Source: Prochlorococcus sp. AG-418-C09
Lineage (GTDB): Bacteria; Cyanobacteriota; Cyanobacteriia; PCC-6307; Cyanobiaceae
Assembly (NCBI GenBank): GCA_003214355.1
Contig: QCLS01000007.1
Location: 1-64,000 of the forward strand
DNA: 64,000 bases
Reading direction: 5' to 3'
Below the pieces are notes generated by a model. The model ran no database searches. It was given only the letters and a program-made list of their open reading frames with translations, and was not told the origin of the DNA. Both the position numbers and the translations under genes were made by a program. Shown piece after piece: positions 5,108 through 45,367 of the stretch. Each line of letters begins with the position of its first letter. Positions within the stretch are counted from its first letter, which is position 1.

Positions 5108-6214
5108 CTATAAATATATAGCATAGAGCTGAGTTTCCAAACCCCAGTGACCCTCTTGTCTAATATAGAAGGAATAACTAGATTGACTGATCTTATCTAT
5201 GAACAAAGCCATATCCCATAAATCTTCTGGGTTGTGATAAATAGAAAGAAGAAGATTAGGCTTATTATCTTTTATATAATCGCCCATTTCTCTTAATGCT
5301 TTATTATCTGAACCTTCAATATCCATTTTAATCGTATCAGGCATTAGTTTACAAAGAATCGATTTTAGATCAAGAACTGGAACAATATTTTGATTTTCAT
5401 CTAAATCACCAGCATCATTGACTGATGAATTATTTTGGATTCTCGATGCAGAATCATTAGAGGTCATCTTAACTCCTTTTAATTGAGTATTGATTCCTAC
5501 AACCCCTTGAATAATATCAACATTACTAGGGAAGCTTTTTACTAATTTTCGAAGTTTTAAAATATTATTCTTTTCAGGTTCAATACAAATATAGTTTTTA
5601 ATGGTTTTTTTGCAAGATTTATAATGATTATAGAAATCCCTCATTGTATCTCCGTCGAAGGCTCCTATATCAAGTATTGTACAATCATTTTTTGTATATA
5701 ATTTACTAATTTCTTTTGGGAAGTACATAGGATAAATATTGGTTTCTCTTGGCTCAGGATAATTATATGCTGTTGGATTATTTCTAAAATCAATTATTTT
5801 ACTAAAAGTATCTCTTGAAACTTGATCAGCTAATAAACTTATAATCTTATTCTTTATATCGTTGGATGGAATAATTGTTATTTTATTTTTTTGTCTCCAC
5901 ATAAATCCATCTGCTATAAAATGTTTAAGCGAATTCGGATATTTTGTGAATAATTCTCTGGGTTCTATTATTTTTGTAAAACCTTTACTTAATAAATGGG
6001 TTTTAATACCTGGGTATCCAAGCACTGTTATAAGAATTTCATAATTCCTATGCCAATTATCTTGAATCTCATTAAATATTGGTATACCTAAATATTCTTT
6101 TTCCTTTGAGAATTTATCTAAAATTGCATATATATTAATTTTATCTATACTTTTAAGAAGTGATTTTGCATACATTCCCATACCATAAATTATCAAATTC
6201 TTAGTAGAGTTCAT
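5108..6214 (-). CDS. FkbM-family methyltransferase with N-terminal Rossmann-type domain
   Basis: A 368-residue, two-domain protein. Residues ~5-95 form a PglD-N/CoA-binding-like Rossmann unit (NLIIYGMGMYAKSLL, then AILDK and GIPIF), often fused to surface-glycan enzymes. Residues ~175-350 are an FkbM-type SAM methyltransferase: ILDIGAFDGDT (180-190), YICIEPEKNN (208-217), and the family hallmark IKMDIEGSD (295-303). FkbM proteins O-methylate sugars and antibiotics. It is the last of the four methyltransferases and is divergent from the oxidoreductase at 6524. ATG start at 6214. Confidence 0.85.
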   Translation of the reverse strand: MNSTKNLIIYGMGMYAKSLLKSIDKINIYAILDKFSKEKEYLGIPIFNEIQDNWHRNYEILITVLGYPGIKTHLLSKGFTKIIEPRELFTKYPNSLKHFIADGFMWRQKNKITIIPSNDIKNKIISLLADQVSRDTFSKIIDFRNNPTAYNYPEPRETNIYPMYFPKEISKLYTKNDCTILDIGAFDGDTMRDFYNHYKSCKKTIKNYICIEPEKNNILKLRKLVKSFPSNVDIIQGVVGINTQLKGVKMTSNDSASRIQNNSSVNDAGDLDENQNIVPVLDLKSILCKLMPDTIKMDIEGSDNKALREMGDYIKDNKPNLLLSIYHNPEDLWDMALFIDKISQSSYSFYIRQEGHWGLETQLYAIYL

Positions 6215-6523: not shown

Positions 6524-7633
6524 ATGCAATCTTTAATCAGAGTCGGAATAATTGGTGGCGGTGAAAATTCAGCTGTAGGAAAAGTTCATCTAACAGCATT
6601 AAGAATGGATACAAGATTTGAAATTGGGCCATGTTTTTTTTCACATCTAGAAGAAGAAAATAAAAAAAGTCATTTTCTTTATTCTTTACCTTGGAAAGAA
6701 CATCCCTCAAATATTGATTATTGGCTAAAAAGTAATGAGCATTTATTAGATCTAGTTATATTGTTAACTCCTTCAACTCAGCATGCTAATCAAATACAAA
6801 AAATCATAAATAATAGAATTTCATTTGTAACAGAAAAACCAGTTGGATGCTCTTTAAATGAAATTAATGATATTTGTAATCATTTGGAAAATCATAAAAA
6901 TATAAATGCGAGATTTATTCATAATTATTCCGGATACCCGATGTATAGAGAAATGGTGTTGCGATTAAATAAAAAAGAAATAGGTAGGATTCATCATGTC
7001 AAGGCTCAAATGCCGAGCGATGGTTTTGCAAGAGAAATGATTACTGGTAAACCTCAAATATGGAGACAAACTGACCCAGAGATTCCAATGATCATGCTTG
7101 ACTTAGGCACTCATTTACATCATTTAGTTACTATGGCTATCGGACATTCTTCTGGCAAAGTTAGAGCACGAATGCATCAACTAATAAATAAGATGGGTGT
7201 TATTGATAATGTTGAAATCTGGGAAGAAAGATCTGATAATATCAAAGTTTCATACTGGATGTCCAAAGCTCATCTTGGGATTAAAAATGGACTATGTCTA
7301 GAATTCTATGGAGAAAAAGGTGGTTTTGTTTGGAATCAAATGGATCCAGATCATTTAATCAAATATGACTTAGAAAGCAACAAATTGAAAATTAATAGAG
7401 GATCCATTAATTCAGAAGCTGCATATAGAGATCGATTTAAAGCGGGACATCCTACAGGATTTGTTGATGCTTTCAGCTATTTTTATTCTGATTTAGCAGA
7501 TGATTTTATTTCAAGAAATAATGGATTAAAGGGTAGCTTTTGGATAAAAACTATAGATGATGCTTTTAAAGGTATTAAGTTCCTTTCGGCAGCAAAAGAA
7601 TCTTATATTAATGACCAATGGATAAATTTATAA
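6524..7633 (+). CDS. Gfo/Idh/MocA-family NAD(P)-dependent oxidoreductase
   Basis: A 369-residue protein. The N-terminal Rossmann motif is IGGGENSAVGKVH (residues 10-22), a Wlb/WbpB-like variant of the dinucleotide loop. The conserved EKP of the family, with its catalytic lysine, is at 104-106 (FVTEKPVG), and the second-domain motif DLGTHLHHL is at 193-201. Enzymes of this family oxidise sugar nucleotides or reduce keto sugars, for instance in making 3-amino or uronic sugars. It faces the 7644-9290 gene with only 10 bases between the stops. It may supply the keto-sugar acted on by the nearby acyltransferase and aminotransferase, which is inference. Confidence 0.85.
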   Translation: MQSLIRVGIIGGGENSAVGKVHLTALRMDTRFEIGPCFFSHLEEENKKSHFLYSLPWKEHPSNIDYWLKSNEHLLDLVILLTPSTQHANQIQKIINNRISFVTEKPVGCSLNEINDICNHLENHKNINARFIHNYSGYPMYREMVLRLNKKEIGRIHHVKAQMPSDGFAREMITGKPQIWRQTDPEIPMIMLDLGTHLHHLVTMAIGHSSGKVRARMHQLINKMGVIDNVEIWEERSDNIKVSYWMSKAHLGIKNGLCLEFYGEKGGFVWNQMDPDHLIKYDLESNKLKINRGSINSEAAYRDRFKAGHPTGFVDAFSYFYSDLADDFISRNNGLKGSFWIKTIDDAFKGIKFLSAAKESYINDQWINL

Positions 7634-7643
7634 TTATCTTTTT

Positions 7644-9290
7644 CTAAGTATTTATAAATTTAATACTGTTTTGGAAGAAATTATCTTTATTGCATGAGAT
7701 ATTAGGCCCATATCTTAGTCTAAATGACTTTAAAGTATCTCCATATATAAATTTAAAAGAACATTCTTTTGGGTCTAATTTATATATCTTACAAAAGCTA
7801 TGAAGAGCAAAATGTGTTGGCCCATAAATTATAATTTTACCTGATAAGATCATATTCTGAATAAGAGTTTTAAGATCTTTTTGTCTAATATCAAATATTA
7901 AGGAATCAATTATGATTATTTCATATATTTTATTAAAGTTTTTTGGCATTAAAGCAATAACTTCCATATGTGACAGACTATTTTCAACATCAAGAGAAAA
8001 AGAAATTTTCTCGTTTAATTTGAGAATCTTTTTCAATTGGCAAAAGTTACGCGTGTTAAGAGTAAACATAGGCTTATAAGAACTCTCAACAATTAAGTTG
8101 GATAATTGATCAAGAGTGTGATCTTCGAATTTATCTAATGAAATTTTAGAAATTGTTTTTGAATGAGGAATTACTAAATTTCTTATAATAGATTCATCAT
8201 CTGTATTAAAGATTTCTTCCTGTTTTTGAGATTTAATAGTTAAGTTTAAAGGAACCCAGGCTTCTGGCACTACATATCCACCACAATTAGATCCAGTTTT
8301 GACTTTAAAATAATCTATATAGGTTTCATATAAAAAAGATTCAAAAAGATTATATGTACTTTCTAAGGAGTTTCCAGTTATCGGTTTTATAGATTTAATC
8401 TCTGGATTAAATGAAAAATCTTTATAATTTAGATTTCTAGCAACAAAATTTTTCTTTGATCTAATTCTTTTTAATTCTCCCTCAAATATATTAACCTTTG
8501 GTCCTTTTGCAGTGCACCAATTATCGTATTTAATGTAATCTTTTGCAAAATTAAAATAATCACGATATTTACAAAGATATATAGAGCCTTTACCCAAATT
8601 TGTGGACTGCCATATTCCATTCTTTTCAGCTAGATATCCAAGCTTTTGACAGTTTCCCCTTGTGTTTTCTATACGAACCGGAACACTATAGTTCCAGATC
8701 TGCTTTTTAATATTGGATTCCTTAAACTTTATTTTGCCATAGAAGAGTTTATCATATCTATATTCAGAACTAACAATATAATCTAAATAGTGAATGAATG
8801 GCGTCCAATTTGGACCTAAACCAATGCTTAAACATTTGATTTCATGATCTAACATTCTTTCAAAGACAGAATTATGACCATAACTGCTATTAGAAATATC
8901 ATCAATTATTTCATCAGTTTTTGGGCCGCTACAACTTACTGAAACCATAGGATCTATACTTCTCTTAAAAGATTTTTCTCGTAAAACAAAATTTGGGAAA
9001 GGACCTATTTTAGATAAAGTATTTTTAACGTCAAAAAGGGCTAGTTTTTGAGAAGTTGATTCTCCAAAGGTATAACTATAAGTTGGTACAATTATAGTAC
9101 CAATTGAGCCTAATATTTCTTGAAGTGCTTCGAGATGTATGGCACAAAGACTATCTAAATTATATATATTTTCGCATGAACCTAGAAAACCAAGTCCTGT
9201 TGTCACAAATAAATTATCACCTTTTTTTATACCAAGTAATTTATATCTTTCAAGAATTTGTTGATAATTATAACTACTAAATTTATCCAT
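7644..9290 (-). CDS. AAC(3)-like acyltransferase fused to a degenerate DUF4910/DUF2172-like domain
   Basis: A 548-residue protein of two parts. Residues ~8-265 match the aminoglycoside 3-N-acetyltransferase (AAC(3)) family: KKGDNLFVTTGLGFLG (22-37), VPTYSYTFG (68-76), a YGHNSVFERML segment (137-147), and WTPFIHYLDY (162-171) with the family's catalytic-type His. Residues ~305-548 align by eye with the DUF4910/DUF2172 aminopeptidase-like protein at 13467-14786: KTGSNCGGYVVPEAW against KTGEKVGDWDIPYEW, and HMEVIALMP against KLTLIEALIP. The metal-binding SSYLCHPSMANNELSG of that family is replaced by IDSLIFDIRQ, so this half is probably not a peptidase. Its start overlaps the ACP gene by 8 bases, so the two are probably translated together. 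It may move an acyl group from the ACP to an amino sugar; this is inference. Confidence 0.75.
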   Translation of the reverse strand: MDKFSSYNYQQILERYKLLGIKKGDNLFVTTGLGFLGSCENIYNLDSLCAIHLEALQEILGSIGTIIVPTYSYTFGESTSQKLALFDVKNTLSKIGPFPNFVLREKSFKRSIDPMVSVSCSGPKTDEIIDDISNSSYGHNSVFERMLDHEIKCLSIGLGPNWTPFIHYLDYIVSSEYRYDKLFYGKIKFKESNIKKQIWNYSVPVRIENTRGNCQKLGYLAEKNGIWQSTNLGKGSIYLCKYRDYFNFAKDYIKYDNWCTAKGPKVNIFEGELKRIRSKKNFVARNLNYKDFSFNPEIKSIKPITGNSLESTYNLFESFLYETYIDYFKVKTGSNCGGYVVPEAWVPLNLTIKSQKQEEIFNTDDESIIRNLVIPHSKTISKISLDKFEDHTLDQLSNLIVESSYKPMFTLNTRNFCQLKKILKLNEKISFSLDVENSLSHMEVIALMPKNFNKIYEIIIIDSLIFDIRQKDLKTLIQNMILSGKIIIYGPTHFALHSFCKIYKLDPKECSFKFIYGDTLKSFRLRYGPNISCNKDNFFQNSIKFINT

Positions 9291-9558
9291 TATTCTTTGA
9301 TTTTATTTTATAAATTATTGAAGACATACCTTTGATTGTTCGGATTGTATCGCTATTTAAATATGAGTTGCCAATAGAAATTTCAAAATAATCTTCAATT
9401 ATTGCAATTAAAGAAACAATCCCAAATGAGTCAATATAGCCTGAATTAAAAATATCATTTTCTAGGATCTCTTTATTTTCTTCATCAATATCTAATGATG
9501 ATAATAATGCTATATTTTTTATTATGAATCTTTCTATATCTTGATGATTTAATACCAT
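9283..9558 (-). CDS. Acyl/peptidyl carrier protein
   Basis: A 91-residue acidic, four-helix-type carrier protein. The phosphopantetheine site is GYIDSFGIVSL with Ser 44 after Asp 43, matching the DS(L/F)xxV signature. It is too divergent and too isolated to be the fatty-acid ACP, and it sits between an AAC(3)-like acyltransferase (8-base overlap downstream) and a divergent adenylate-forming ligase. Those neighbours suggest it carries an activated amino or other acid for surface-sugar acylation. Its ATG (9556-9558) overlaps the ligase's ATG on the other strand in the palindrome CATG. No other start is available near the N-terminus. Confidence 0.88.
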   Translation of the reverse strand: MVLNHQDIERFIIKNIALLSSLDIDEENKEILENDIFNSGYIDSFGIVSLIAIIEDYFEISIGNSYLNSDTIRTIKGMSSIIYKIKSKNNG

Positions 9559-11107
9559 GCAAAAAGAATCTTTTAATTTACATTACAATAATATCACTGA
9601 GGCTATTGATTTTGCATGGAAGGGTAATGAAAAAAAAACCTCAGTCATTTTTAAGAATAAAAAATATACTTTTCAAGACTTAAAAAATAAGGCACAAATT
9701 TATCAATCAATAGTTAAAAAATTATCTAATAATAAAAATAATAAAAGAATTGTTATAATCTCTCGAAATTCTCCCGAAATTATATCTCTATTTCTGGCTT
9801 GCGGAAAAGAAGGATGGTTTTGTTGCCCTTTAAATAACGAGCTTAAATACTTTCAGTTATCAATACAAATCAAATTAATCAATCCTATTTTTATTTTTTA
9901 TGATCAAGAAATAATCAAAAAGAGCCTCTTAAAGGATGAAGATTTTCATGAGAATTTGTTTATTAAATTAGACTCATCAGAAGATAATATTTCTTTAGAA
10001 AAATCTAAAATTGTTGATTCTGAGATCTTAAATGAAGACTTTTTGCTTACTTGCAGTTCCGGTAGTACAGGTAATCCAAAGCCAATAGTGTTTACACAAA
10101 AAACTAAATTAATTAGATCATTAATGGCTATAGAAACTTGGAATTTAAAACCAAAGGATGTCTTCATTAACGCTTCTCCTCTTCATCATTCTTTGGGACA
10201 AAGATTAACTTTTATACCTTTGTTAACAGGCTCAAAAAGTATTTTATTAGAAAAGTTTACTGTTGAAGAGTGGCTGAGAGAATCTATTCTACATAAAGTT
10301 TCATTTACAATTCCCGTAATTTCTCATCTACAAAAACTAATTCAAGAAAAGGAATTTTGGGATTTAATATCAAGTAAGTTTTTTAATTGTATAGTAGCAA
10401 GTTCTTCAAAACTGGATGGAGATTTAAGAAATAAGATTTTAAGGCATGATAATAATATTTTTTATGAAATGTATGGAACCTCAGAAGTAGGCACAGCGAC
10501 TGTACTTAATACTAAGTTAATGAATGATGGTTTAGATTCGGTTGGAAAATCTGTTAAAAATGTAAATTTAAAAATTATCAATCCAAAAACAAAGAAACAA
10601 TTAAAATGCGGTGAAATTGGAGAAATTGCCATAGATTCAATATATAGATTTAAAGAATATTTAAATGACAAAGAACTTACAAGAAAATGCATGCATGGTT
10701 CCTATTTCCTAACTGGAGATTTAGGTTATATAGATAAAAAAGGTTTTTTATACTACAAAGGAAGAAAAGATGATTGTTTTAATGTGGGAGGAATTAAAAC
10801 CTATAGTGTAGATATTGAAAATTTTGTTCTTGAGAATTTTGAATTAATAGACTGTAAAGTATTTGGTTTAAAACATAATTATTTTGGCACTATTCCAATT
10901 GCTGCTTGTGTAACTAAAGAAAAAGATGCAAAAACTCGATCAGCTCTAGAAAGAAAGATTAGACATTTATGCGCGCTTCATCTTGCACCATTTCAAGTTC
11001 CACATTTAGTGGTTAGTTTTTTAGATTTTCCAAAATTAAATAATGGAAAACTAAATAGAGTAAAGCTAATATCGGATTTAGAGAAAAGATATTTAGAGAA
11101 TAATTAG
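9557..11107 (+). CDS. AMP-dependent synthetase/ligase (adenylation domain protein)
   Basis: A 516-residue stand-alone adenylate-forming enzyme with the usual core motifs: A3 CSSGSTGNPKP (166-176), A5 YEMYGTSE (303-310), A7 YFLTGDLGYID (383-393), A8 YKGRKDDCFNVGGIK (400-414) and A10 NNGKLNR (495-501, catalytic Lys 498). It would adenylate a carboxylic or amino acid and load it on a pantetheine thiol, most simply that of the divergent ACP. I cannot name the substrate from the sequence. Its start codon overlaps that of the ACP gene, so its promoter must lie inside the ACP coding sequence. Confidence 0.88.
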   Translation: MQKESFNLHYNNITEAIDFAWKGNEKKTSVIFKNKKYTFQDLKNKAQIYQSIVKKLSNNKNNKRIVIISRNSPEIISLFLACGKEGWFCCPLNNELKYFQLSIQIKLINPIFIFYDQEIIKKSLLKDEDFHENLFIKLDSSEDNISLEKSKIVDSEILNEDFLLTCSSGSTGNPKPIVFTQKTKLIRSLMAIETWNLKPKDVFINASPLHHSLGQRLTFIPLLTGSKSILLEKFTVEEWLRESILHKVSFTIPVISHLQKLIQEKEFWDLISSKFFNCIVASSSKLDGDLRNKILRHDNNIFYEMYGTSEVGTATVLNTKLMNDGLDSVGKSVKNVNLKIINPKTKKQLKCGEIGEIAIDSIYRFKEYLNDKELTRKCMHGSYFLTGDLGYIDKKGFLYYKGRKDDCFNVGGIKTYSVDIENFVLENFELIDCKVFGLKHNYFGTIPIAACVTKEKDAKTRSALERKIRHLCALHLAPFQVPHLVVSFLDFPKLNNGKLNRVKLISDLEKRYLENN

Positions 11108-11330
11108 ATTTTTAAAAGACTTAATTAAAACATTTTGATTCTAATTATTCTATAAATAACATAATTCAAATAGAAACCTTGTTGTAATAAAAACTATAAA
11201 TTATTATTTTCTATTTTATTATTAATAATAAATATGTTATTAAATCAAAAAAGATTCGACAAATATATTTCGTAGGAAAACTAATTTTTAAAAATAATAC
11301 TAGACATTTTTATAAATATTAAATAGTAAA

Positions 11331-11960
11331 TTATTGATAACAAATAATGATATTTTCTTCTTTAATTAATTTATTAGACACTATAGAAAAATACCAATCA
11401 ATAAACTTAAAGGCATTCAAATATAAAGTTAAATTTTTTTTGTAATTTATCATTTTATTTAATTTAAAATTACATTCCCATGATTTAATATCATCAAAGA
11501 GTCTTCCTTTGTGAAATTTAATAGAAGCCTCCTTAGAGGTCCATAATTGTAAGGTTAGTTTTCTTTTTTCTATATTATTTAGACTATTTAAAAGCTTTAT
11601 TTCTTTATCAGAGTAGAATCTTTCAATAATTCTTTCACTGATAATCTCTCTATCAGATGGTTCTAGGTCTATACCAAAATTAATTTGCGAGTATCCGAAT
11701 AAAAGATAATCTTTACTATGACTAATACCTAAATGACCTCCATCTTCAATATTTATAATTGGGGTCTTTTCTGGAGGCGCGTATAAAGGTAAATCTAAAG
11801 GGTGAAAACCTAGTATAGAACTTAAGGCTTGCCTAATATATCCCCTTGAATGGAAATATTCTTTTTTCTTATGCCCAGATAAATAATTACCCCATTTTAT
11901 TTCTTGATCCGAAACTGGAAGAATAGGTAATTTCTTAGGTATCATCCATAATTTAATCAT
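11331..11960 (-). CDS. 4'-phosphopantetheinyl transferase (Sfp type)
   Basis: A 209-residue protein of the usual Sfp/Gsp length. Conserved motifs are LGISHSKDYLLFGYS (77-91), FGIDLEP (95-101; Mg2+-binding Asp 98 and Glu 100) and WTSKEASIKFHKG (140-152; Lys 143, Glu 144). It converts apo carrier proteins to the holo form by transferring phosphopantetheine from CoA, and the ACP at 9283 is an obvious partner. If the genome has another such enzyme for fatty-acid ACP, this one is dedicated to the module; otherwise it serves both, which cannot be told from this window. ATG start at 11960. Confidence 0.88.
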   Translation of the reverse strand: MIKLWMIPKKLPILPVSDQEIKWGNYLSGHKKKEYFHSRGYIRQALSSILGFHPLDLPLYAPPEKTPIINIEDGGHLGISHSKDYLLFGYSQINFGIDLEPSDREIISERIIERFYSDKEIKLLNSLNNIEKRKLTLQLWTSKEASIKFHKGRLFDDIKSWECNFKLNKMINYKKNLTLYLNAFKFIDWYFSIVSNKLIKEENIIICYQ

Positions 11961-13466: not shown

Positions 13467-14786
13467 TTAAATTAGTTTAATTAATTTAAAATTTAACAAT
13501 ATTTTTAATTCTTCAATCAAAGTATTTAATGGAACTTCAGTCAAAATAGCGATTTCAAATATTGATCGTTTACCATCACAATAAGCAATAATATCGCTTC
13601 TAATCCCGCATGCCCTTTTTTGCCCTGCTACATGATATGAAAGATTTTTATATAAACCTCTTTTCCCAAGCTGTGGTTCACCCAGAGTAATTGTCATTGG
13701 ATAAATGCCAAATTCAAAAGCATCGATTATATTCTTGATCACATTAAAAGATCCTAGGAGACCTTCTTGGGAAATAAAGTTAAGATTATCTAAACTTGTA
13801 TGATATTCTTTATATTCTCCAAACTTAGATCTACTAAAGCTACATAAAGGAAGATTAACTTGTGGCGAACAGTATTGTCTTTCATCTGAACCTCTTTCTA
13901 GAAAACTTTTCGAATAAACATTTTTTTTTCCTATTAGAGCAGCTTTAAGCGCTAAATCTGCTAAGTTATTGCCATTAGGACTTTGAATATGAGTATATTG
14001 GTTATTATCTCCACAGCAAGTTAGGTTAAATCCACAAATAACCTTTTCAATTAACTTCTTTGATTTTCTTGATAAATATGCAATTGAACCAATAGTTTCT
14101 GGCAGTAAAACAAATCTGTAATTGTATTTTCTACTTGAGTTCTGCTTAACATATTTAATTATTTCATTTAAGACTACAGGTCCGCTTAGCTCATTATTTG
14201 CCATCGATGGATGGCAAAGATAACTAGAAAAGAAGATATCTTTTTTTAATCCTTTCTTAGATGGGATTAGAGCTTCAATTAATGTAAGCTTTCCAGGCTT
14301 TAATGTGGAATTAATAACGCATTTATATTCTTCATCTTTTTTCAGGGTTTTGAATAAATTGTATTCAAGGCAAAATCCCCAATACTTTTTATAATATGAA
14401 GTTACATAAGGGATAGCATTAGGAAGATCCTCCCTGTAATGTAAATGTTCAACTAATTCATCAAATGAAAGGGTTTTATTAATTGGAATTGAGTAGCCAA
14501 CTACAGATAAATTACATTTAGAAAACTCACATATTCTTTCCCCATTTTGAAGCTCAATATAAGCATTTGAGATATTCCATTCATATGGAATATCCCAATC
14601 TCCTACTTTCTCCCCTGTTTTAAAAATTATTTTTTTAAATTCTTCATGGATCTCACAAAAAAAATCAAAACTCTTTTTTATACCATCTCCTGTTAAGGAT
14701 CTATTTATTGGAAAAAGCATCTCTGCTAATTCATACATTGATTTATTGCAAATTTCTTTCTTATTCAGATTACTATTTGTTTGCAT
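13467..14786 (-). CDS. DUF4910/DUF2172 aminopeptidase-like protein with winged-helix tail
   Basis: A 439-residue protein of a family found in surface-glycan loci, with an M28-like zinc peptidase fold. The N-terminal signature is LFPINRSLTGDG. Metal-site segments are SSYLCHPSMANNELSGP, LLPETIGS (catalytic-type Glu), GSDERQYC and EYHTSLDN. The last ~60 residues (CDGKRSIFEIAILTEVPL) form the winged helix usual in the family. The role is undefined; deacylation or hydrolysis of an acylated sugar has been imagined but is not shown here. I chose the ATG at 14786, which has AAGGA upstream, rather than the in-frame GTG at 14834, which adds 16 unconserved residues. The degenerate half of the 7644-9290 protein belongs to the same family. 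Confidence 0.8.
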   Translation of the reverse strand: MQTNSNLNKKEICNKSMYELAEMLFPINRSLTGDGIKKSFDFFCEIHEEFKKIIFKTGEKVGDWDIPYEWNISNAYIELQNGERICEFSKCNLSVVGYSIPINKTLSFDELVEHLHYREDLPNAIPYVTSYYKKYWGFCLEYNLFKTLKKDEEYKCVINSTLKPGKLTLIEALIPSKKGLKKDIFFSSYLCHPSMANNELSGPVVLNEIIKYVKQNSSRKYNYRFVLLPETIGSIAYLSRKSKKLIEKVICGFNLTCCGDNNQYTHIQSPNGNNLADLALKAALIGKKNVYSKSFLERGSDERQYCSPQVNLPLCSFSRSKFGEYKEYHTSLDNLNFISQEGLLGSFNVIKNIIDAFEFGIYPMTITLGEPQLGKRGLYKNLSYHVAGQKRACGIRSDIIAYCDGKRSIFEIAILTEVPLNTLIEELKILLNFKLIKLI

Positions 14787-15030
14787 GAAATTCTTATCCT
14801 TATTTATTTTAACTAGAAGAACATAAAAATTCACTAATATAGATACAAAAAAATACCTTACTGTTATATGACTTTAGTTAAGCCTTTTATTTACACCGAT
14901 ATTTTATAAATTTGATTGATTATTTTCTATCAAAAAAAAAACTTTATTTTAGACGATTATAAAATTACTTTTAAAGAGAGTTTACTAAGAATAAAAACAT
15001 ATATAATGATTTAAATAAAAATGATTTTAA

Positions 15031-29279: not shown

Positions 29280-29978
29280 CTATTTAACTTTTGTTATGCA
29301 AGTTTTTCCAAAAATAAATTCTGCATATTCCCAATCTTCAATTGTATCGATATCTATAGCTCTCATTCTTGGGAGAATATATGGGATACTGCGTTCAAGT
29401 AAATTTGATTTTTTTAGCCATGTATTTTTCGAGGCAATGTAAAATTGTCCTGCATCATGATATGCAGTTTCTAAATCTTGAGTCCTTGATGAAAAGTTGT
29501 CTGGAAAAATCATTTTCGAAAAGCCTTTTTTATCAATAGAGAATGATCTTTTTATAGGATGAGGAAATTTTGTTGCAGAAAAAATATATGTCTCAATTGA
29601 TTCATTTTTTAATTTCCTAAATGATTCAGAAATATCTTTTTCACTAATAAATAAGGCTGTTGGATAAATACAGCAAATGGTATCAATTTCAATTCCTTTA
29701 TCTTTGAAGAAATTAATTGTATGAAGAACAACATCTCTTGTAGAGGCGTAATCTCCTGAAAGATTATCAGGACGAATAAAAGGTATTTCAGCACCGGCAT
29801 CAAGAGCAATGTTTGCTATCTCCTTATCATCTGTACTAACAACTACCATTTCAAAGTCATCTAATTTCTTGGCTTCAGAAATAACCCACTCTATAATTGG
29901 CCGTCCTTTAATTTCTTTTATGTTTTTTCTAGGAATCCTTTTGCTTCCGCCTCTAGCTGGAATTAAGATAATATTCAT
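29280..29978 (-). CDS. pseF: Pseudaminic acid (CMP-nonulosonate) cytidylyltransferase
   Basis: A 232-residue enzyme with the nucleotidyltransferase signature IPARGGSKRIPRKNIKE (6-22), VVVSTDDKEIA and IPFIRPDNLSGDYAST. It activates a nonulosonic acid with CTP before transfer to the glycan. The length and the HDAGQFYIASK segment match PseF better than NeuA or LegF. Its ATG overlaps the stop of pseC (TGATG), so the two are translationally coupled. The gene order pseI-pseB-pseC-pseF on the minus strand supports the assignment. Confidence 0.85.
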   Translation of the reverse strand: MNIILIPARGGSKRIPRKNIKEIKGRPIIEWVISEAKKLDDFEMVVVSTDDKEIANIALDAGAEIPFIRPDNLSGDYASTRDVVLHTINFFKDKGIEIDTICCIYPTALFISEKDISESFRKLKNESIETYIFSATKFPHPIKRSFSIDKKGFSKMIFPDNFSSRTQDLETAYHDAGQFYIASKNTWLKKSNLLERSIPYILPRMRAIDIDTIEDWEYAEFIFGKTCITKVK

Positions 29979-31165
29979 CAGATAAATAACTTTAGGGCAT
30001 TTTTAACTCTTATTTGTTGATCAATTGTTAGACCAGGGAATAAAGGGATGCTTATTGCTGAAGAAGCATAAATTTCAGAACCGGTGAAATTCTTTTTATC
30101 AAAATTAAATTTTTTGTAATATGGATGCTTGTAAATAGGCTTGTAATGTAATTGGACTCCAATTTCTTCTGATCTTAATCCTTCAAAAACTTTTAGATAA
30201 TATTTTTCATTTAATCTATTTAGTCTTATTACAGCTAAATGGACCGAAGAATATACATCAGGTGGAATTTCAAGAAAAGTAAGAGGCAAGTCACTAAGTA
30301 TCTCATAATAAAAGACTAATTGCCTATTTCTTTCTTTTACTATCTCTTCAAGCCTTTTAAGCTGGCTTAATCCCAAAGCCGCTTGGATATCTGTAATTCG
30401 GTAGTTAAAGCCAAGATTTTGTTGTTCATATTGCCAGCCTCCAATTAGTGGTTCAACAAATTTTTCAGGATCTTTTTCAATACCATGAGATCTTAAGTTC
30501 ATCATTTTATCTGCAAATAATTTACTATTTGTAGTAGCAACACCACCTTCTCCAGAAGTGATTATTTTTACAGGATGAAAGCTAAATACTGTTATTTCAC
30601 TGTACTTACAGCTACCTACTAATGAGTCTTGGTATTTACCTCCAATGGCATGACTAGCGTCTTCAATTACTGAGAAGTTATATTTTTTGGATAATTCGTT
30701 TATTTCCTTCATTTCACATGAACTACCAGCTAAATGAACAGGAATAAGGACTTTTGGCAAAGAATTATTTTTTTGAGCTTGTAAAAGCTTGTTCTTAAGT
30801 TTTTGTATATCGATTAAACCTGTATTAGGATTTATATCTACGAAATCAATCCATGCATTGCAGTATAGAGCACAATTTGAAGATGCCACAAAAGAGATTG
30901 GTGATGTCCAAACAATATCATTTTTTGTAACTCCCAATGCAAGGCAGGCAAGATGAAGGGCACTTGTGGCACTATTTACTGCAACAGAAAATTTTGATCC
31001 AACTTCCCTTGAAATTGCATTTTCAAATTCTATGATTTTCTGACCCTGTGTAAGTCTGGAACCTTTCAAGACTTTATTGACTTCCTTTATATCCTGTTCC
31101 GAAATATAATGCATTCCATATGGCAAAAATTCTTGCTTCGAATTTTTATCAAAATTTAAATTCAT
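29978..31165 (-). CDS. pseC: UDP-4-amino-4,6-dideoxy-N-acetyl-beta-L-altrosamine transaminase
   Basis: A 395-residue PLP-dependent aminotransferase of the DegT/DnrJ/EryC1/StrS family. GSRLTQGQKIIEFENAI and NSATSALHLACLALGV open the fold, VIEDASHAIGGKY binds PLP, and FSFHPVKIITSGEGG holds the Schiff-base lysine. WTSPISFVASSNCALYC is typical of the PseC subgroup. It aminates the 4-keto sugar made by PseB in the pseudaminic acid route. It is followed by pseF with a one-base overlap and preceded by pseB 16 bases upstream. Confidence 0.9.
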   Translation of the reverse strand: MNLNFDKNSKQEFLPYGMHYISEQDIKEVNKVLKGSRLTQGQKIIEFENAISREVGSKFSVAVNSATSALHLACLALGVTKNDIVWTSPISFVASSNCALYCNAWIDFVDINPNTGLIDIQKLKNKLLQAQKNNSLPKVLIPVHLAGSSCEMKEINELSKKYNFSVIEDASHAIGGKYQDSLVGSCKYSEITVFSFHPVKIITSGEGGVATTNSKLFADKMMNLRSHGIEKDPEKFVEPLIGGWQYEQQNLGFNYRITDIQAALGLSQLKRLEEIVKERNRQLVFYYEILSDLPLTFLEIPPDVYSSVHLAVIRLNRLNEKYYLKVFEGLRSEEIGVQLHYKPIYKHPYYKKFNFDKKNFTGSEIYASSAISIPLFPGLTIDQQIRVKNALKLFI

Positions 31166-31181
31166 AACTTATCAATTAACA

Positions 31182-32180
31182 TTAGAAATTATTTATAGAT
31201 GGCAAGTTTTTTTTGATCCATAGATTTAATTCTTCTTTGGTCATCCAATCTTTATTAATATCAGAAGAATATGAAAAATCTGGAGGAACTAATTTTCCTT
31301 TTTTAATTCTTTTCTCATCTTCACTCCAGCCGTTGATTGCAGGGAGTATCTTAAAATAGTCACCATATTCATAAGTATGTGGGGCGTCATCGGAGTTAAT
31401 CATATGTTCATGGAGCTTCTCGCCTGGCCTTATCCCAATGATTGAAAATTCTGCGGAGGGATTTATTGTTTTGGCAATATCTACAATCTTCATGGATTTT
31501 ATTTTTTTTACATATATCTCACCTCCGCACATATCTTCAAATGCGTTCCATACCATTCTTACAGCTTCATTTAGAGTGATCATGAATCTTGTCATTCTCT
31601 CATCTGTAATAGGTAATATATTTTTATTTGCTTTGCTAAGGAAAAGAGGAATGACTGATCCCCTTGAACCCATAACATTACCATATCTTACAATCGAGAA
31701 AGTTGTATCTGAATTTCCAGAATAAGAATTGCTTGATATGAATACCTTATCAGATATGAGCTTAGTCGCTCCATATAAATTTGTTGGGCTACATGCTTTA
31801 TCAGTCGATAGGGCAATTACTCTCTTTATACCTCTATCAATTGCAATATCAATTAAATTCATTGCACCATTTACGTTGGTTCTAATACATTCAAAAGGAT
31901 CATATTCAGCTTTTGGGACAATTTTCAAGGCTGCGGCATGAACCACATAATCAATACCACTTAAAGCTCTCCATAAACGATCTTTATCTCTAACATCTCC
32001 AATAAAGAATCTAACCCTTTTATCATTTTCGTAAGTTTTAGCCATCTCCCATTGTTTCATTTCATCTCTAGAAAAAATAACAACCTTTTTGGGATTGTAT
32101 TTCTTCAAAGTCATTGGAATAAATGTTTTGCCGAATGAACCAGTACCTCCAGTGATTAATATTGATGAATTTTCTAACAC
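31182..32180 (-). CDS. pseB: UDP-N-acetylglucosamine 4,6-dehydratase (inverting)
   Basis: A 332-residue SDR enzyme. GGTGSFG (11-17) binds NADP, STDKACSPTNLYGATK carries the catalytic Tyr/Lys pair, and VIFSRDEMKQWEM after strand 2 is the PseB/FlaA1 hallmark. It dehydrates and inverts C5 of UDP-GlcNAc as the first step of pseudaminic acid synthesis. The start is GTG (32180), directly ahead of the first strand (LENSSILITGGTG). It lies 96 bases downstream of pseI and 16 bases before pseC on the same strand. The long soluble form, without membrane spans, separates it from the WbpM/PglF type at 33587. Confidence 0.92.
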   Translation of the reverse strand: MLENSSILITGGTGSFGKTFIPMTLKKYNPKKVVIFSRDEMKQWEMAKTYENDKRVRFFIGDVRDKDRLWRALSGIDYVVHAAALKIVPKAEYDPFECIRTNVNGAMNLIDIAIDRGIKRVIALSTDKACSPTNLYGATKLISDKVFISSNSYSGNSDTTFSIVRYGNVMGSRGSVIPLFLSKANKNILPITDERMTRFMITLNEAVRMVWNAFEDMCGGEIYVKKIKSMKIVDIAKTINPSAEFSIIGIRPGEKLHEHMINSDDAPHTYEYGDYFKILPAINGWSEDEKRIKKGKLVPPDFSYSSDINKDWMTKEELNLWIKKNLPSINNF

Positions 32181-32276: not shown

Positions 32277-33317
32277 CTATTCAATTGCATCCCATGAAAC
32301 TCTATCTCCTTTTTTTATAGCCTTTTTTAATTTCTTGTTTAAGAAATTATCATAATATTTTGGAGGTAAACCATACCCAGGTCTAATTCTTCTAATGTCT
32401 TTTGGAGTTATAGTTTGACCAGGTTCCTTATCAGTTACAAAATAAAGAGATCTCCTGAAAACTATGTTTTCTGTTTCTGAATCAGATCTTTTAAAACTTC
32501 CACATCCTAAAGCTTCCCAACATTCAGTTGTTTCTTCTTTTAATTTTTTCAATTGATAAGGAAGAATCGAAAAAGAACTGTCAGGCCCGTTTTTATGCTT
32601 ATCTAAAATATAATGCTTTTCTATTGCACAACCTCCTAAAGCTACTGATGCTAAAGCAGCAGTATTATTAAGTGTATGGTCAGATAAACCCACATCAAGT
32701 CCATACTTTGTTCTTAAACTTGTAATCATTTGGACATTAGAATCTGAAGTAGGTGCAGGATAACTACTAATACAGTGAAATAATAATATTTCACCGTTAC
32801 CGTATTTACGCGCCACTTCAACTGCTTCATCTATCTCATCTTCGGAAGCCATCCCGGTAGACATTAGGATAGGTTTATTTTTACTAGCAATGTATTTAAT
32901 CAGTTGTAGATCAAGGATTTCAAATGAAGCTATTTTGAATGCTGGTGTCTTTAGTTCCTCAAGGAAATCAACTGCCTCCTCATCAAAAGGGGATGAAAAA
33001 ATTGTAATGCCAATATGATCTGCATACTCGAATAATTTCTTATGCCACTCATAAGGAGTAGAAGCTTCCTGGTATAAATCGAACAACTTGTATCCTTTCC
33101 ATGTCCCTTTTTTGATAAGGAAGTCATCTTTATCGGAATTTAAAGTCATGGAATTGGCTGTGTACGTCTGTAACTTAATAGCATCAGCACCACATTCTTT
33201 TGCAGACTTTATGGTTCTTAAAGCTCTATCCAATGATCCGCAATGATTAGCAGATAATTCAGCTATGATATAGGGATTTTTTTTATTGCAAATTTCTCTC
33301 TTATTTATCTCTATCAT
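32277..33317 (-). CDS. pseI: Pseudaminic acid synthase
   Basis: A 346-residue sialic-acid-synthase-type enzyme: a TIM-barrel NeuB domain (AELSANHCGSLDRA, then AIKLQTYT; GLSDHTLN; CAIEKHYILD) followed by a C-terminal SAF/antifreeze-like domain (DIRRIRPGYGLPPK). It condenses phosphoenolpyruvate with a 6-deoxy-di-N-acetyl-altrose to give the nine-carbon acid. The PseI rather than NeuB or LegI assignment follows from the neighbouring pseB and pseC. ATG at 33317. The gene is first in the pse run; the 269-base gap upstream is shared with the divergent 33587 gene. Confidence 0.9.
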   Translation of the reverse strand: MIEINKREICNKKNPYIIAELSANHCGSLDRALRTIKSAKECGADAIKLQTYTANSMTLNSDKDDFLIKKGTWKGYKLFDLYQEASTPYEWHKKLFEYADHIGITIFSSPFDEEAVDFLEELKTPAFKIASFEILDLQLIKYIASKNKPILMSTGMASEDEIDEAVEVARKYGNGEILLFHCISSYPAPTSDSNVQMITSLRTKYGLDVGLSDHTLNNTAALASVALGGCAIEKHYILDKHKNGPDSSFSILPYQLKKLKEETTECWEALGCGSFKRSDSETENIVFRRSLYFVTDKEPGQTITPKDIRRIRPGYGLPPKYYDNFLNKKLKKAIKKGDRVSWDAIE

Positions 33318-37682: not shown

Positions 37683-39125
37683 GTTTTTATCTCAAGAAAA
37701 ATCTCTAATAAAATCAAGAAAATATGTTGTATTGGCGCAGGCTATGTAGGAGGACCTACAATGGCTGTCATAGCTGATAAATGTCCGGATATCATTGTTA
37801 CCTTAGTAGATATTGATCAAAACAGAATTGATTCCTGGAATAATAAAGATCTCAATAAGTTGCCTGTTTATGAACCAGGTCTTAAAGAAATTATTTCCAG
37901 AATAAGGAATAAGAACTTATTTTTTTCATGTGAAATTGAATCTGCCATAAAAGATTCTGATATGGTATTTATCTCCGTTAATACTCCTACTAAAAAGAGT
38001 GGCTTTGGAGCGGGTTATGCAAGTGACTTGAAATGGGTTGAATCGAGTGCTCGACAAGTTGCTGAATTTTCAGTTGGACATACTATTGTTGTGGAAAAAA
38101 GTACTGTGCCAGTAAAGACAGCAGAGCTAATACAACATATCCTTAATGATGCAGAGAAGAATAGCCGTAATTCATCCAATTTAAAGAGTTTCTCAGTTTT
38201 ATCAAGTCCAGAATTTTTAGCTGAAGGAACTGCTATAGATGATTTAGAAAATCCAGATAGAGTTTTAATTGGAGGTGAAGATGCTTTAGCTGTTAGGAGT
38301 TTAAGTAGCATATATGAAAGATGGATCTCTTCTGAGAAGATTCTTTTTACTAATCTTTGGAGTAGTGAGTTATCTAAATTAACCGCAAATGCTTTCTTAG
38401 CCCAAAGAATAAGCTCAATAAATTCGATTTCTGCTTTATGTGAATCAACTGGAGCGGAAATTAATGAAGTAGCAAATGCTATAGGTGCTGATCGCAGGAT
38501 AGGACAAAAATTCCTTAGCGCAGGTCCAGGTTTTGGTGGGAGCTGTTTTCAAAAAGATATATTAAATCTGGTTTATCTATGTAAATATTATGGTCTTTAT
38601 GAGGTTGCAAAGTATTGGGAAGGAGTATTAAGTATTAATTCCTGGCAGAAAGAAAGGATTGCATCTCTAATAGTTGAAAAACTTTTTGGAACAGTTACTA
38701 ATAAGAAAATAGCAATATTTGGTTTTGCCTTCAAAGCTAGTACTAATGATACTAGAGAGTCTCCAGCGATTTCAATTGCCAAATATTTAATTGAGAATGG
38801 TGCAAACCTTATTATCACAGATCCGCAAGTTACCCCTATTCAAATTGAGATGGAATTAAGCCTATCCGAATCGCAGCAATGTAAATTAGGAGGTGGAAAA
38901 TGGGCTTATTCAAAAGATCATAAATATTGTGTAAAGAATGCAGACGCTGTTATATTATTAACAGCATGGGATGAATTTAAAGAGTTAGATTGGAAAGATT
39001 TAATTTGCCTAATGCGTAAACCATCATGGATTTTTGATAACAGAAAAATAATTTGTATCGATGATCTCAAAGGCACAGATGTAAACTTCTGGCAAATAGG
39101 TTTAGGAACTATACACTCAATGTAA
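37683..39125 (+). CDS. UDP-glucose 6-dehydrogenase, start codon missing or frameshifted
   Basis: The frame codes for a full UDP-glucose/GDP-mannose dehydrogenase. The NAD motif KKICCIGAGYVGGPT precedes the first in-frame ATG (37761), which would delete it. Downstream are EKSTVPVKT, SSPEFLAEG and the catalytic-cysteine motif GPGFGGSCFQKD, so the enzyme body is intact. It oxidises UDP-glucose to UDP-glucuronate, feeding the epimerase at 15031. The odd point is the start: between the in-frame TGA (37680-37682) and the NAD motif no ATG, GTG or TTG exists. An ATG at 37679 in another frame reaches a stop after nine codons, but one fewer A in the A5 run (37697-37701) would join it smoothly to this frame. 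A sequencing error, a real frameshift or a rare start (ATC/ATT/ATA) are the options. Coordinates give the open frame. Confidence 0.85.
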   Translation, partial: VFISRKISNKIKKICCIGAGYVGGPTMAVIADKCPDIIVTLVDIDQNRIDSWNNKDLNKLPVYEPGLKEIISRIRNKNLFFSCEIESAIKDSDMVFISVNTPTKKSGFGAGYASDLKWVESSARQVAEFSVGHTIVVEKSTVPVKTAELIQHILNDAEKNSRNSSNLKSFSVLSSPEFLAEGTAIDDLENPDRVLIGGEDALAVRSLSSIYERWISSEKILFTNLWSSELSKLTANAFLAQRISSINSISALCESTGAEINEVANAIGADRRIGQKFLSAGPGFGGSCFQKDILNLVYLCKYYGLYEVAKYWEGVLSINSWQKERIASLIVEKLFGTVTNKKIAIFGFAFKASTNDTRESPAISIAKYLIENGANLIITDPQVTPIQIEMELSLSESQQCKLGGGKWAYSKDHKYCVKNADAVILLTAWDEFKELDWKDLICLMRKPSWIFDNRKIICIDDLKGTDVNFWQIGLGTIHSM

Positions 39126-43962: not shown

Positions 43963-45126
43963 TCAATTAATTGATTTATTAATATCTATTAAACTATTAA
44001 TAACCAAATTTTGATCATCTTGAGTTAATAAAGGATGCATAGGCAAACTTAAAACTTCTTTTGTAGCATAATTGGCCTGATCTAAACTATAAGCTTTATA
44101 TACCTCTCTTTGAAATATTTTGGGGAGAATTAGTTTATTTGTTTTTTTTAATGCTTTCTGGTCTGACAGTAGTATTGGATAGTGTATTGAAGTCGGAATC
44201 CCTTTATCTTTAAGAAGATCTACAATTCTAGATCTGTTTTGTACCTTAACCGTATATTGAGCATAAACACTAGTGTTCTCTTGAGAAATAAACGGAGTTT
44301 CTGAAAATCCTTTTTCTTGAAGTAAATTTGTATATTTCTTGCCAATCCTTTCCCTAGCAATAACTTCTTTTTCAAAGAATTTTAATTTAGCTAATAGAAT
44401 AGTTGCTTGGATTGTATCTAATCTTCCATTTAGCCCTATCTGATTATGTGCATAACGCTGATTCTGTCCATGTATGGAAATCTCGCGCATTCTCTTAGCT
44501 AATAAATCATCATTTGTGAAGCATGCACCGCCATCTCCATAGCATCCTAACGGTTTTGAAGGAAAGAAGCTTGTTGTCCCAATGGTTGATAAGGAACAAC
44601 TTCTTTCTCCATGATGTCTTGAACCAAACGATTGAGCACCGTCTTCAATAATTGGTATTTTATAACTATTTCCAAACTTATTTATTTCTTTAAAGTCTGA
44701 TGGTTGTCCATATAAGCTAACAGGAATAATAGCTTTTGTTTTCTTTGATATAGCAGATTCTATATTTTGAGGATCTATATTGTAGGTTTTCTTATCAATA
44801 TCTATAAAAACAGGTTTTGCTCCCAAAAGTAAAATTGCTTCTACAGTTGAAAAAAAAGAGAAAGGTGTTGTAATAATCTCATCTCCTGGCTGAATACCTA
44901 ATGCCATTAGGGCAATAATTAAAGCATCAGTTCCGCTTGATACTCCTATGCAATGCTTGACCCCTACATAAGCAGCTAATTTTTCTTCCAGTTCTCCTAC
45001 TTCTGGACCTAATATATATCTTCCATGATCTAAAACTAGTCTTATTCTTTTATCTATATCTTGTCTAAGGGTAATACCCTCTTCATCCATTTGATGTTGT
45101 TGAGCCTTGAGATCGATGAATTCCAT
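43963..45126 (-). CDS. DegT/DnrJ/EryC1/StrS-family aminotransferase
   Basis: A 387-residue PLP-dependent sugar aminotransferase. FIDLKAQQHQMDEEG at the start and GPEVGELEEKLAAYVGVKHC are the WecE/WbpE/FdtB-like opening; SSGTDALIIALMALG, PIIEDGAQSFGSRH and TTSFFPSKPLGCYGDGG (Schiff-base Lys) mark the active site. It would aminate a 3-keto or 4-keto nucleotide sugar for the surface glycan; QuiNAc/FucNAc-type 3-amino or GlcNAc3N-type products are typical. The keto sugar could come from the oxidoreductase at 6524. The start is ATG at 45126; a TTG four codons further upstream is less likely. Confidence 0.88.
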   Translation of the reverse strand: MEFIDLKAQQHQMDEEGITLRQDIDKRIRLVLDHGRYILGPEVGELEEKLAAYVGVKHCIGVSSGTDALIIALMALGIQPGDEIITTPFSFFSTVEAILLLGAKPVFIDIDKKTYNIDPQNIESAISKKTKAIIPVSLYGQPSDFKEINKFGNSYKIPIIEDGAQSFGSRHHGERSCSLSTIGTTSFFPSKPLGCYGDGGACFTNDDLLAKRMREISIHGQNQRYAHNQIGLNGRLDTIQATILLAKLKFFEKEVIARERIGKKYTNLLQEKGFSETPFISQENTSVYAQYTVKVQNRSRIVDLLKDKGIPTSIHYPILLSDQKALKKTNKLILPKIFQREVYKAYSLDQANYATKEVLSLPMHPLLTQDDQNLVINSLIDINKSIN

Positions 45127-45367
45127 TCTTAAAATCAACTAGTCTCTAGTATGCATTATTTTCGCTGCTTTTAGTTTATTTGTGTCTCCAGTATTTGTCC
45201 ATTCCTACTTCTTTAAGTTAGATAAAAGTAAAGGGATTCCTTCTTAATTGAAATAGGGGAATTATTAAGATTTTAGATTTAGGAAAAAAATGATAAATTT
45301 AAATGATTTAACTTAAAAAGGAAAAGATACCAAAAATTTCAAAAATAATAATTACTCTCGATCTAGA

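Follow-up and report, generated by a model that had tools for sequence, protein, structure and literature searches.

A candidate module for carrier-protein-dependent N-acylation of a surface amino sugar in a Prochlorococcus polysaccharide locus

The subject of this analysis is a group of genes within a 64,000-nucleotide stretch of the genome of Prochlorococcus sp. AG-418-C09 (contig QCLS01000007.1, positions 1 to 64,000; hereafter the window), in which an acyltransferase of the AAC(3)/Antibiotic_NAT fold (7644-9290), an acyl carrier protein (ACP; 9283-9558), an AMP-forming acyl ligase (9557-11107) and an Sfp-type phosphopantetheinyl transferase (PPTase; 11331-11960) lie together. By the best reading, this group probably serves the ACP-dependent N-acylation of some amino sugar of the cell coat, and the fuller statement, which also names the surface amino sugar as probably pseudaminic acid (Pse) or a precursor of it, stands in our judgment at about even chances. 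We infer the enzymatic steps, the acid and the acceptor from the gene families, from their clustering and their recurrence in other genomes, from two phylogenetic trees that match, and from the pse genes present in the window. Within a glycan locus, the window has an acyltransferase gene with a dedicated ACP and a candidate loader as its neighbours, the arrangement by which ACP-dependent sugar N-acylation is recognized, and an aminopeptidase-like (DUF4910) protein accompanies pse genes, the combination that marks Pse modification of the Cj1295 type. If true, this reading would mean that the AAC(3) fold has a native function beyond resistance, in the biosynthesis of coat sugars, would provide the orphan DUF4910 family with a likely partner, and would predict unusual acyl amides on the coats of an abundant ocean phototroph; recognition by phages and grazers may depend on these. 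Many unrelated bacteria have gene clusters with related kits, genomes are easily searched for the signature of AAC(3), ACP and loader, and the steps are open to reconstitution in vitro.

Gene content and recurrence

Open reading frames (ORFs) and Pfam matches agree with the four genes, and with their coordinates, as proposed in a first-pass annotation of this DNA, and the polysaccharide locus proposed there is recognized by the glycosyltransferase, sugar-transferase, GDP-mannose and pse genes that surround the module. The AAC(3) gene, on the reverse strand, encodes a fusion protein of 548 amino acids, whose N-terminal domain (8505..9290, residues 1-262) is assigned to the AAC(3)/Antibiotic_NAT-fold N-acyltransferases by Pfam (Antibiotic_NAT, PF02522, 3.7e-25 over residues 53-253, 89.3 bits versus a cut-off of 25), by a confident AlphaFold model, by its best PDB fold matches (AAC(3), FrbF, BA2930 and YokD, with AAC(3)-IVa matched at 1.5e-16), and by alignment. 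H167 of the fusion aligns with the His of the TxxHxAE motif of canonical AAC(3) members, which we take to be the catalytic His of the family, and the N-terminal VHSSL His of canonical members is Thr or Ser in the window protein, in its relatives L062, L063 and L064, and also in L081. The remainder of the fusion (7644..8504) is probably a degenerate, non-catalytic DUF2172/DUF4910 domain: it matches the DUF4910 profile (1.8e-7 in hmmsearch, three sequences searched; 69.8% in hhalign), aligning with DUF4910 only along the DUF2172-like part, and the zinc-ligand motif is missing. Most of this tail is modelled by AlphaFold at a per-residue confidence (pLDDT) below 50, and thus its assignment rests on sequence profiles. 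The tails of the L062, L063 and L064 fusions are likewise changed, AAC(3)-DUF4910 fusions of 629-740 residues are present in G386, G609, L065, L069 and L085, and the tail of the window protein is perhaps a leftover, maybe a docking part. An AAC(3)-like domain is also found inside a protein annotated as a HAD-IIIC family phosphatase on a Rahnella sikkimica plasmid (L035, 9818-12331), with MaoC, SDR and ATP-grasp neighbours.

The ACP gene (reverse strand, 91 amino acids) overlaps the start of the AAC(3) gene by 8 bases, and its phosphopantetheine site, correctly placed by the first-pass annotation at Ser44, is invariant in all six ACPs aligned, the fatty-acid ACP of the same genome among them. 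The latter is encoded on another contig, beside a fabF-like gene, and the window ACP is therefore an extra one. It scores 31.7 bits with DltC of NCBIfam, for which the cut-off is 68, and DltA is absent from the best 25 of the 99 NCBIfam families matched by the ligase. The ligase (forward strand, 516 amino acids), a candidate ACP loader, is assigned to the ANL family by Pfam (AMP-binding, 3.7e-39; AMP-binding_C, 1.8e-6), trees and fold, and the core motifs that it was earlier said to possess are indeed kept. An Arg in the A4 motif is shared by this ligase and three relatives (4/4 versus 0/16 other aligned ligases). The Asp of an FD motif has a recognized role in amino-acid-activating domains; 11 of these 16 ligases possess such an FD and the window ligase does not, and thus its substrate is probably a non-amino carboxylic acid, while the ligases of other modules may take amino acids. 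MenE, feruloyl-CoA synthetase, MatB, amide synthetases and nonribosomal peptide synthetase (NRPS) domains all match the ligase alike in the fold search, so that no substrate is named by the fold. The divergent ACP and ligase genes share one CATG (9556-9559) as their start codons, as called from the first ATG, which leaves no intergenic room for promoters; a scan for promoters and terminators returned sites no more numerous than in shuffles.

Relatives of this AAC(3) are encoded in three of the 266 genomes of the genus, its own included, and each of the three has an ACP gene and an AMP ligase gene no more than about 3 kb away from it. The gene order is DUF4910 - AAC(3) - ACP - aminotransferase - ligase in G101, and PPTase - formyltransferase - AAC(3) - glyoxalase-like - ACP - ligase - thioesterase-like in G027. 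The three AAC(3)s are not mutual nearest relatives in the tree (the placement of G027, on a long branch, is unsure), suggesting that these modules were likely acquired separately. A wider scan, of one genome per species, yielded 27 loci from many phyla, with profile matches near the AAC(3) gene to an ACP in 23, to a ligase in 18, to DUF4910, fused or separate, in 14, to KAS III in 8 and to HAD-IIIC in 2; an ACP plus a loader is present in 18 of the 27, and an ACP or a loader is found in the stretch in 25. The module is also present in a Paenibacillus plasmid record and in G562 and G266. By comparison, ten canonical PF02522 loci from the cyanobacterial phylum, serving as controls (L061 and L110-L118, searched at a laxer threshold of 0.01, six of the ten stretches being shorter than 11 kb, and L061, L115 and L117 having weakly matched the AAC(3) alignment too), possess no ACP, no DUF4910 and, with the exception of one weak match (0.0024), no ligase. 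Three middle cases were counted neither as module loci nor as controls: L060, with an ACP 2.7 kb off (a training sequence of the profile used), L058, with a ligase fragment about 9 kb off, and L059, with nothing.

As to the makeup of these counts, L070 and G101/L018 are one and the same locus, L066 shares its contig with L052, and both L070 and L066 contributed to the query; without these two, an ACP is found at 22/25 loci and a ligase at 17/25. The ACP profile was trained on seven sequences, none of them among the 27 loci, and L018 proteins, found again in L070, went into the ligase and DUF4910 profiles. L075, L076, L078 and L079 are near-equal clusters, and the ACP match of L065 is doubtful and overlaps another ORF. 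The co-location of the gene set is not due to chance. A genome-neighbourhood check had been suggested by the first-pass annotation for all four genes, and co-occurrence holds for AAC(3), ACP and ligase but not for the PPTase, which is found near the AAC(3) gene in none of the 27 loci.

In both the AAC(3) tree (23 of the 27 loci, without L078, L082, L084 and L086) and the ligase tree (14 of the 18 loci, without L068, L078, L082 and L086), the window forms one clade, at 100/99, with loci of Riflebacteria (L062), Stygiobacter (L063) and bacterium ADurb.Bin157 (L064). L062 has the order ligase - Gfo/Idh - FkbM methyltransferase - ACP - AAC(3) fusion, with DUF4910 upstream, L064 has the order ligase - Gfo/Idh - ACP - AAC(3) fusion, with DUF4910 downstream, and L063 possesses the ACP, the fusion, the ligase and DUF4910. 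A separate full DUF4910 gene is present in all four members of the clade, and the three closest loci have DUF4910 in 3/3, Gfo/Idh in two and FkbM in one. The corresponding window genes lie on both sides of the original four. To the left are those for a Gfo/Idh/MocA oxidoreductase (6524..7633, forward strand; Pfam), with 31% identity to the L062 and L064 homologues that adjoin ligase and ACP (1e-59 and 6e-60), and for an FkbM-family methyltransferase (5108..6214, reverse strand; Pfam), a candidate O-methylator of the acyl group or the sugar, with 29% identity to its homologue within the L062 cluster (1e-39). To the right is the gene for a full DUF4910-DUF2172-HTH_47 protein (13467..14834, reverse strand), aminopeptidase-like, homologous to CA_C2195/3k9t, and a candidate N-deacylase or acyl-exchange partner. 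The Gfo/Idh protein has five PDB sequence matches, of general names only, by which identity with WbpB is neither shown nor excluded. Judged by these comparisons, the module extends beyond 7644-11960 and includes the predicted DUF4910, Gfo/Idh and FkbM genes; the four genes first described are real, but as a list of the module they are incomplete.

Proposed mechanism and known systems

In the mechanism that we propose, the PPTase (11331) would attach phosphopantetheine to the ACP (9283) at Ser44, and the ligase (9557), having adenylated a non-amino carboxylic acid, would load it onto this ACP. The Gfo/Idh and FkbM proteins would form or trim either the acyl group or the sugar, an O-methylated hydroxy acid being one possible outcome. 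From the ACP, the acyl group would be passed by the AAC(3)-fold domain to a free amino group on the sugar, and the DUF4910 protein (13467) would take off a resident N-acetyl group or otherwise aid the exchange. Docking of the DUF4910 protein may be the part played by the decayed DUF4910 tail on the fusion.

The first-pass annotation considered such a system plausibly undescribed, which is too strong: the kind of system is already known from Campylobacter jejuni (Hitchen 2010, PMC3068675), from Vibrio cholerae O1, with its tetronate genes, from Pseudomonas syringae, with its viosamine island, and from the neighbourhood described by Das 2014 (PMC4000134), and the window set is a variant of it. 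The comparisons that follow draw on portions of the respective texts. One example is the Cj1295 system of C. jejuni, in which the function of Cj1295 has been tied to a 2,3-di-O-methylglyceroyl amide on N5 of Pse, with removal of the N-acetyl group being proposed (Hitchen 2010, PMC3068675). Like the window, it has an aminopeptidase-like protein beside an N-acetyltransferase gene (Cj1296/7, entered as N-acetyltransferase in Table 1) and pse genes, and Cj1295 is grouped there with a C. acetobutylicum protein as aminopeptidase-like (PMC3068675), from which we infer that it is a DUF4910 protein. An unusual acyl amide on an amino sugar belongs to that system (PMC3068675), and one is proposed for the window. 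Unlike C. jejuni, the window encodes an AMP ligase and an accessory PPTase; HAD-IIIC and KAS III gave no match in the window at 1e-10 (profiles from one and two sequences). The C. jejuni locus presumably also holds ACP, HAD-IIIC and fabH2 genes.

Another example is the neighbourhood of CA_C2195 from Clostridium acetobutylicum, a solved protein with conserved neighbourhoods in cyanobacteria and other phyla, for whose family, DUF4910, transacylation or deacylation of an amino sugar was proposed (Das 2014, PMC4000134). Like the window, this nonulosonic acid locus possesses DUF4910, an aminosugar N-acetyltransferase and an ACP (Table 2, PMC4000134). Unlike in the window, a fusion of N-acetyltransferase and HAD adjoins the ACP, and an ATP-grasp ligase is located further off; Table 2 contains no AMP ligase and no PPTase, and the word "aminoglycoside" is absent from the main text (PMC4000134). 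A third example is V. cholerae O1, whose tetronate genes VC0248-VC0252 (wbeL etc.) are, like those of the window, acyl-group genes inside an O-antigen locus, the amine of perosamine being acylated (PMC3441752). The sugar and the acid differ from those proposed for the window. The tetronate set presumably holds an ACP and an AMP ligase, and its transferase is, we assume, not AAC(3)-like.

The viosamine island of P. syringae (vioS, vioR, acp, vioB, vioM) concerns an N-(3-hydroxybutyryl) group on a 4-amino sugar and includes acp, KAS III, reductase and methyltransferase genes; the vioR and vioM mutants were examined by mass spectrometry, and the pathway is putative (PMC3927599). Unlike the window, it relies on a KAS III/reductase route and on the VioB transferase, and its gene table contains no AMP ligase, AAC(3) or DUF4910 (PMC3927599). 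Likewise, the group II flagellin glycosylation island of Aeromonas encodes an ACP, a 3-oxoacyl-ACP reductase and an AMP-dependent synthetase between pse genes, with, unlike the window, LuxC/LuxE genes alongside; "aminoglycoside" and "DUF" are absent from the text (PMC7874193). Apart from the latter paper, the titles and abstract beginnings listed in the literature search contained no description of an AAC(3)-ACP module.

More broadly, we tentatively suggest, with confidence a little short of even, that carrier proteins are the native acyl donors for a broad branch of the AAC(3) fold, which is paired with DUF4910 in a deacylation-reacylation swap of N-acyl groups on nonulosonic acids and other coat sugars, that AMP ligases, HAD-IIIC proteins and KAS III/reductase sets can replace one another as loaders, and that the DUF4910 partner has, in some lineages, been reduced by decay to a non-catalytic tail of the transferase. 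The AAC(3) fold is known mainly from antibiotic resistance dependent on coenzyme A (CoA).

The acceptor and competing explanations

PseF (29280-29978), PseC (29978-31165), PseB (31182-32180) and PseI (32277-33317) are encoded on the reverse strand of the window, all over their NCBIfam equivalog cut-offs, and these genes are a possible source of the amino-sugar acceptor. A NeuB-family synthase is encoded on the AAC(3) contig in 3/3 genus modules, about 4, 12 and 23 kb off, and in three of the six distant genomes, 11-39 kb off. PseH and PseG are under their cut-offs in the host genome (1.6 Mb, 95% complete), with best scores of 44.3 of 93.1 and 29.4 of 153.55 bits, respectively. A PseH-like match at 1e-14 is seen in five genus genomes, in four of them less than 2 kb from PseI.

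A number of observations weigh against ACP-dependent N-acylation of Pse in the window. As to the acceptor, PseH is over its cut-off in none of the 265 genus genomes (PseI is in 26), and its absence in the window is thus no pointer to this AAC(3); a NeuB-family gene over 1e-60 is missing from the AAC(3) contig in three of the six distant genomes; and NeuB-family genes are present in 9/14 control genomes and in 77/265 genus genomes, which renders the nonulosonic-acid link of the module suggestive only. PF03102 is common and the WbpE-like gene (below) is not outside the low-GC part of the window, and both lower our confidence in Pse as the acceptor. As to the gene set, neither Gfo/Idh nor FkbM was found in L063, an ACP match is missing at four of the 27 loci of the scan, and one locus, L084, has no partner at the thresholds used. 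As to the proteins, the window ACP is under its Pfam cut-off (18.6 versus 20.8 bits), and DUF4910 is described as not possessing the classical catalytic residues of M28 (Das 2014, PMC4000134). Of the zinc ligands of CA_C2195 (His189, Asp195 and His324), the window DUF4910 protein (13467) keeps both His and has Asn in place of Asp, an Asn present in a total of 14 loci counting the window (HPSMANNELSG and alike), with the Asp kept in L065, L066, L069 and L074. Finally, several solved AAC(3)-fold relatives are complexes with CoA or acetyl-CoA, by their PDB titles, and among the papers listed in the literature search there was no experiment showing an AAC(3)-fold enzyme using acyl-ACP.

Of the competing explanations, the one that fares best, while still unlikely, is the same chemistry with another acceptor, for example an amino sugar produced not by the pse genes but by the WbpE-like aminotransferase (43963-45138), which is a possible second source of amine. 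The closest solved structure to this protein is WbpE (1.9e-119), presumably an enzyme of 3-amino-sugar acids, GDP-mannose pathway genes are nearby, a UDP-sugar dehydrogenase is encoded at 37761, and in the L063 and L065 genomes NeuB and AAC(3) are on different contigs. However, the WbpE-like gene is 33 kb from the ligase, past a tRNA-Arg, compared to 18 kb for the pse genes, and Cj1295, the presumed DUF4910 protein, has been experimentally linked to Pse (PMC3068675).

It is quite unlikely that acetyl-CoA is the donor and the AAC(3)-like protein a common N-acetyltransferase, which might stand in for PseH, with the ACP and the ligase taking part in a separate reaction of the same locus. The CoA complexes among its best-matching structures and a genome with no PseH over cut-off agree with such a role, but an ACP or a loader is near 25/27 members of this AAC(3) branch versus 0/10 canonical ones, the AAC(3) and ligase trees share their pattern, and of the 26 genus genomes with PseI only the host genome (G000) and G027 possess such an AAC(3), with PseH over cut-off in none of the 26. 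The AAC(3) as the missing PseH was rejected as a special clue, no PseH over cut-off being found in the genus.

An improbable explanation is a minimal NRPS-like path to a small acylated or peptide-like metabolite, with no polysaccharide modification: a ligase, an ACP and a PPTase are also parts of natural-product loading modules, and the FD motif is frequent in the other aligned ligases, but it is missing from the window ligase, genes for sugars surround the module, and NeuB- or PseF-like genes are near several related AAC(3)s. That the gene is an aminoglycoside resistance gene, there by chance, is highly improbable, since, despite the Pfam family Antibiotic_NAT, the fusion scores 36 bits versus the 270-bit cut-off of the AAC_3 resistance equivalog of NCBIfam and has recurrent neighbours.

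The phosphopantetheinyl transferase and the genomic setting

The window PPTase (reverse strand, 209 amino acids; Pfam ACPS, 1.7e-11), the candidate primer of the ACP, is a second, accessory enzyme by its neighbours and by the tree. The host genome has two PPTases, this one and a copy at G000:C6, of which the Pfam ACPS search showed only the former. The possibility of the window copy being the sole housekeeping (core) enzyme was rejected, as it is the G000:C6 copy that has the conserved neighbours, sharing 9-12 of 12 neighbour genes with five core loci (L027, L029, L030, L032 and L033) and 0/12 with eight accessory loci. In the PPTase tree the core copies are grouped at 92/94, and the window copy falls outside, with G058 (81/86). 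An ACP, KAS III or a ligase is found in the stretch taken for 7/9 accessory PPTase loci of Prochlorococcus, the window (W) counted, versus 0/6 core loci, the partners being present at W, L019, L021, L022, L023, L026 and L028 and not at L024 and L025. W and L019 entered this count via AAC(3), and excluding both it becomes 5/7; the other seven accessory loci are high-scoring search matches, not a random draw, and the six core loci leave out the core copy of G027. In G058, G061 and G069, with no second PPTase seen, the copy is called accessory by its neighbours and its place in the tree. Having a dedicated PPTase is thus a Prochlorococcus habit, and the module as seen in the 27 scan loci does not include one. 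The sets beside the accessory PPTases (L019, L021, L022, L023, L026 and L028) differ among loci, and include KAS III with ACP and SDR, ACP with a ligase and a luciferase-like monooxygenase, KAS III with ACP, KAS III with SDR, and others.

No relative was found among viral contigs or phage records. Between tRNA-Ala and tRNA-Arg (1297-39248) the GC content of the window is 25-33%, compared to 32-37% at 46-62 kb, and this part resembles a genomic island.

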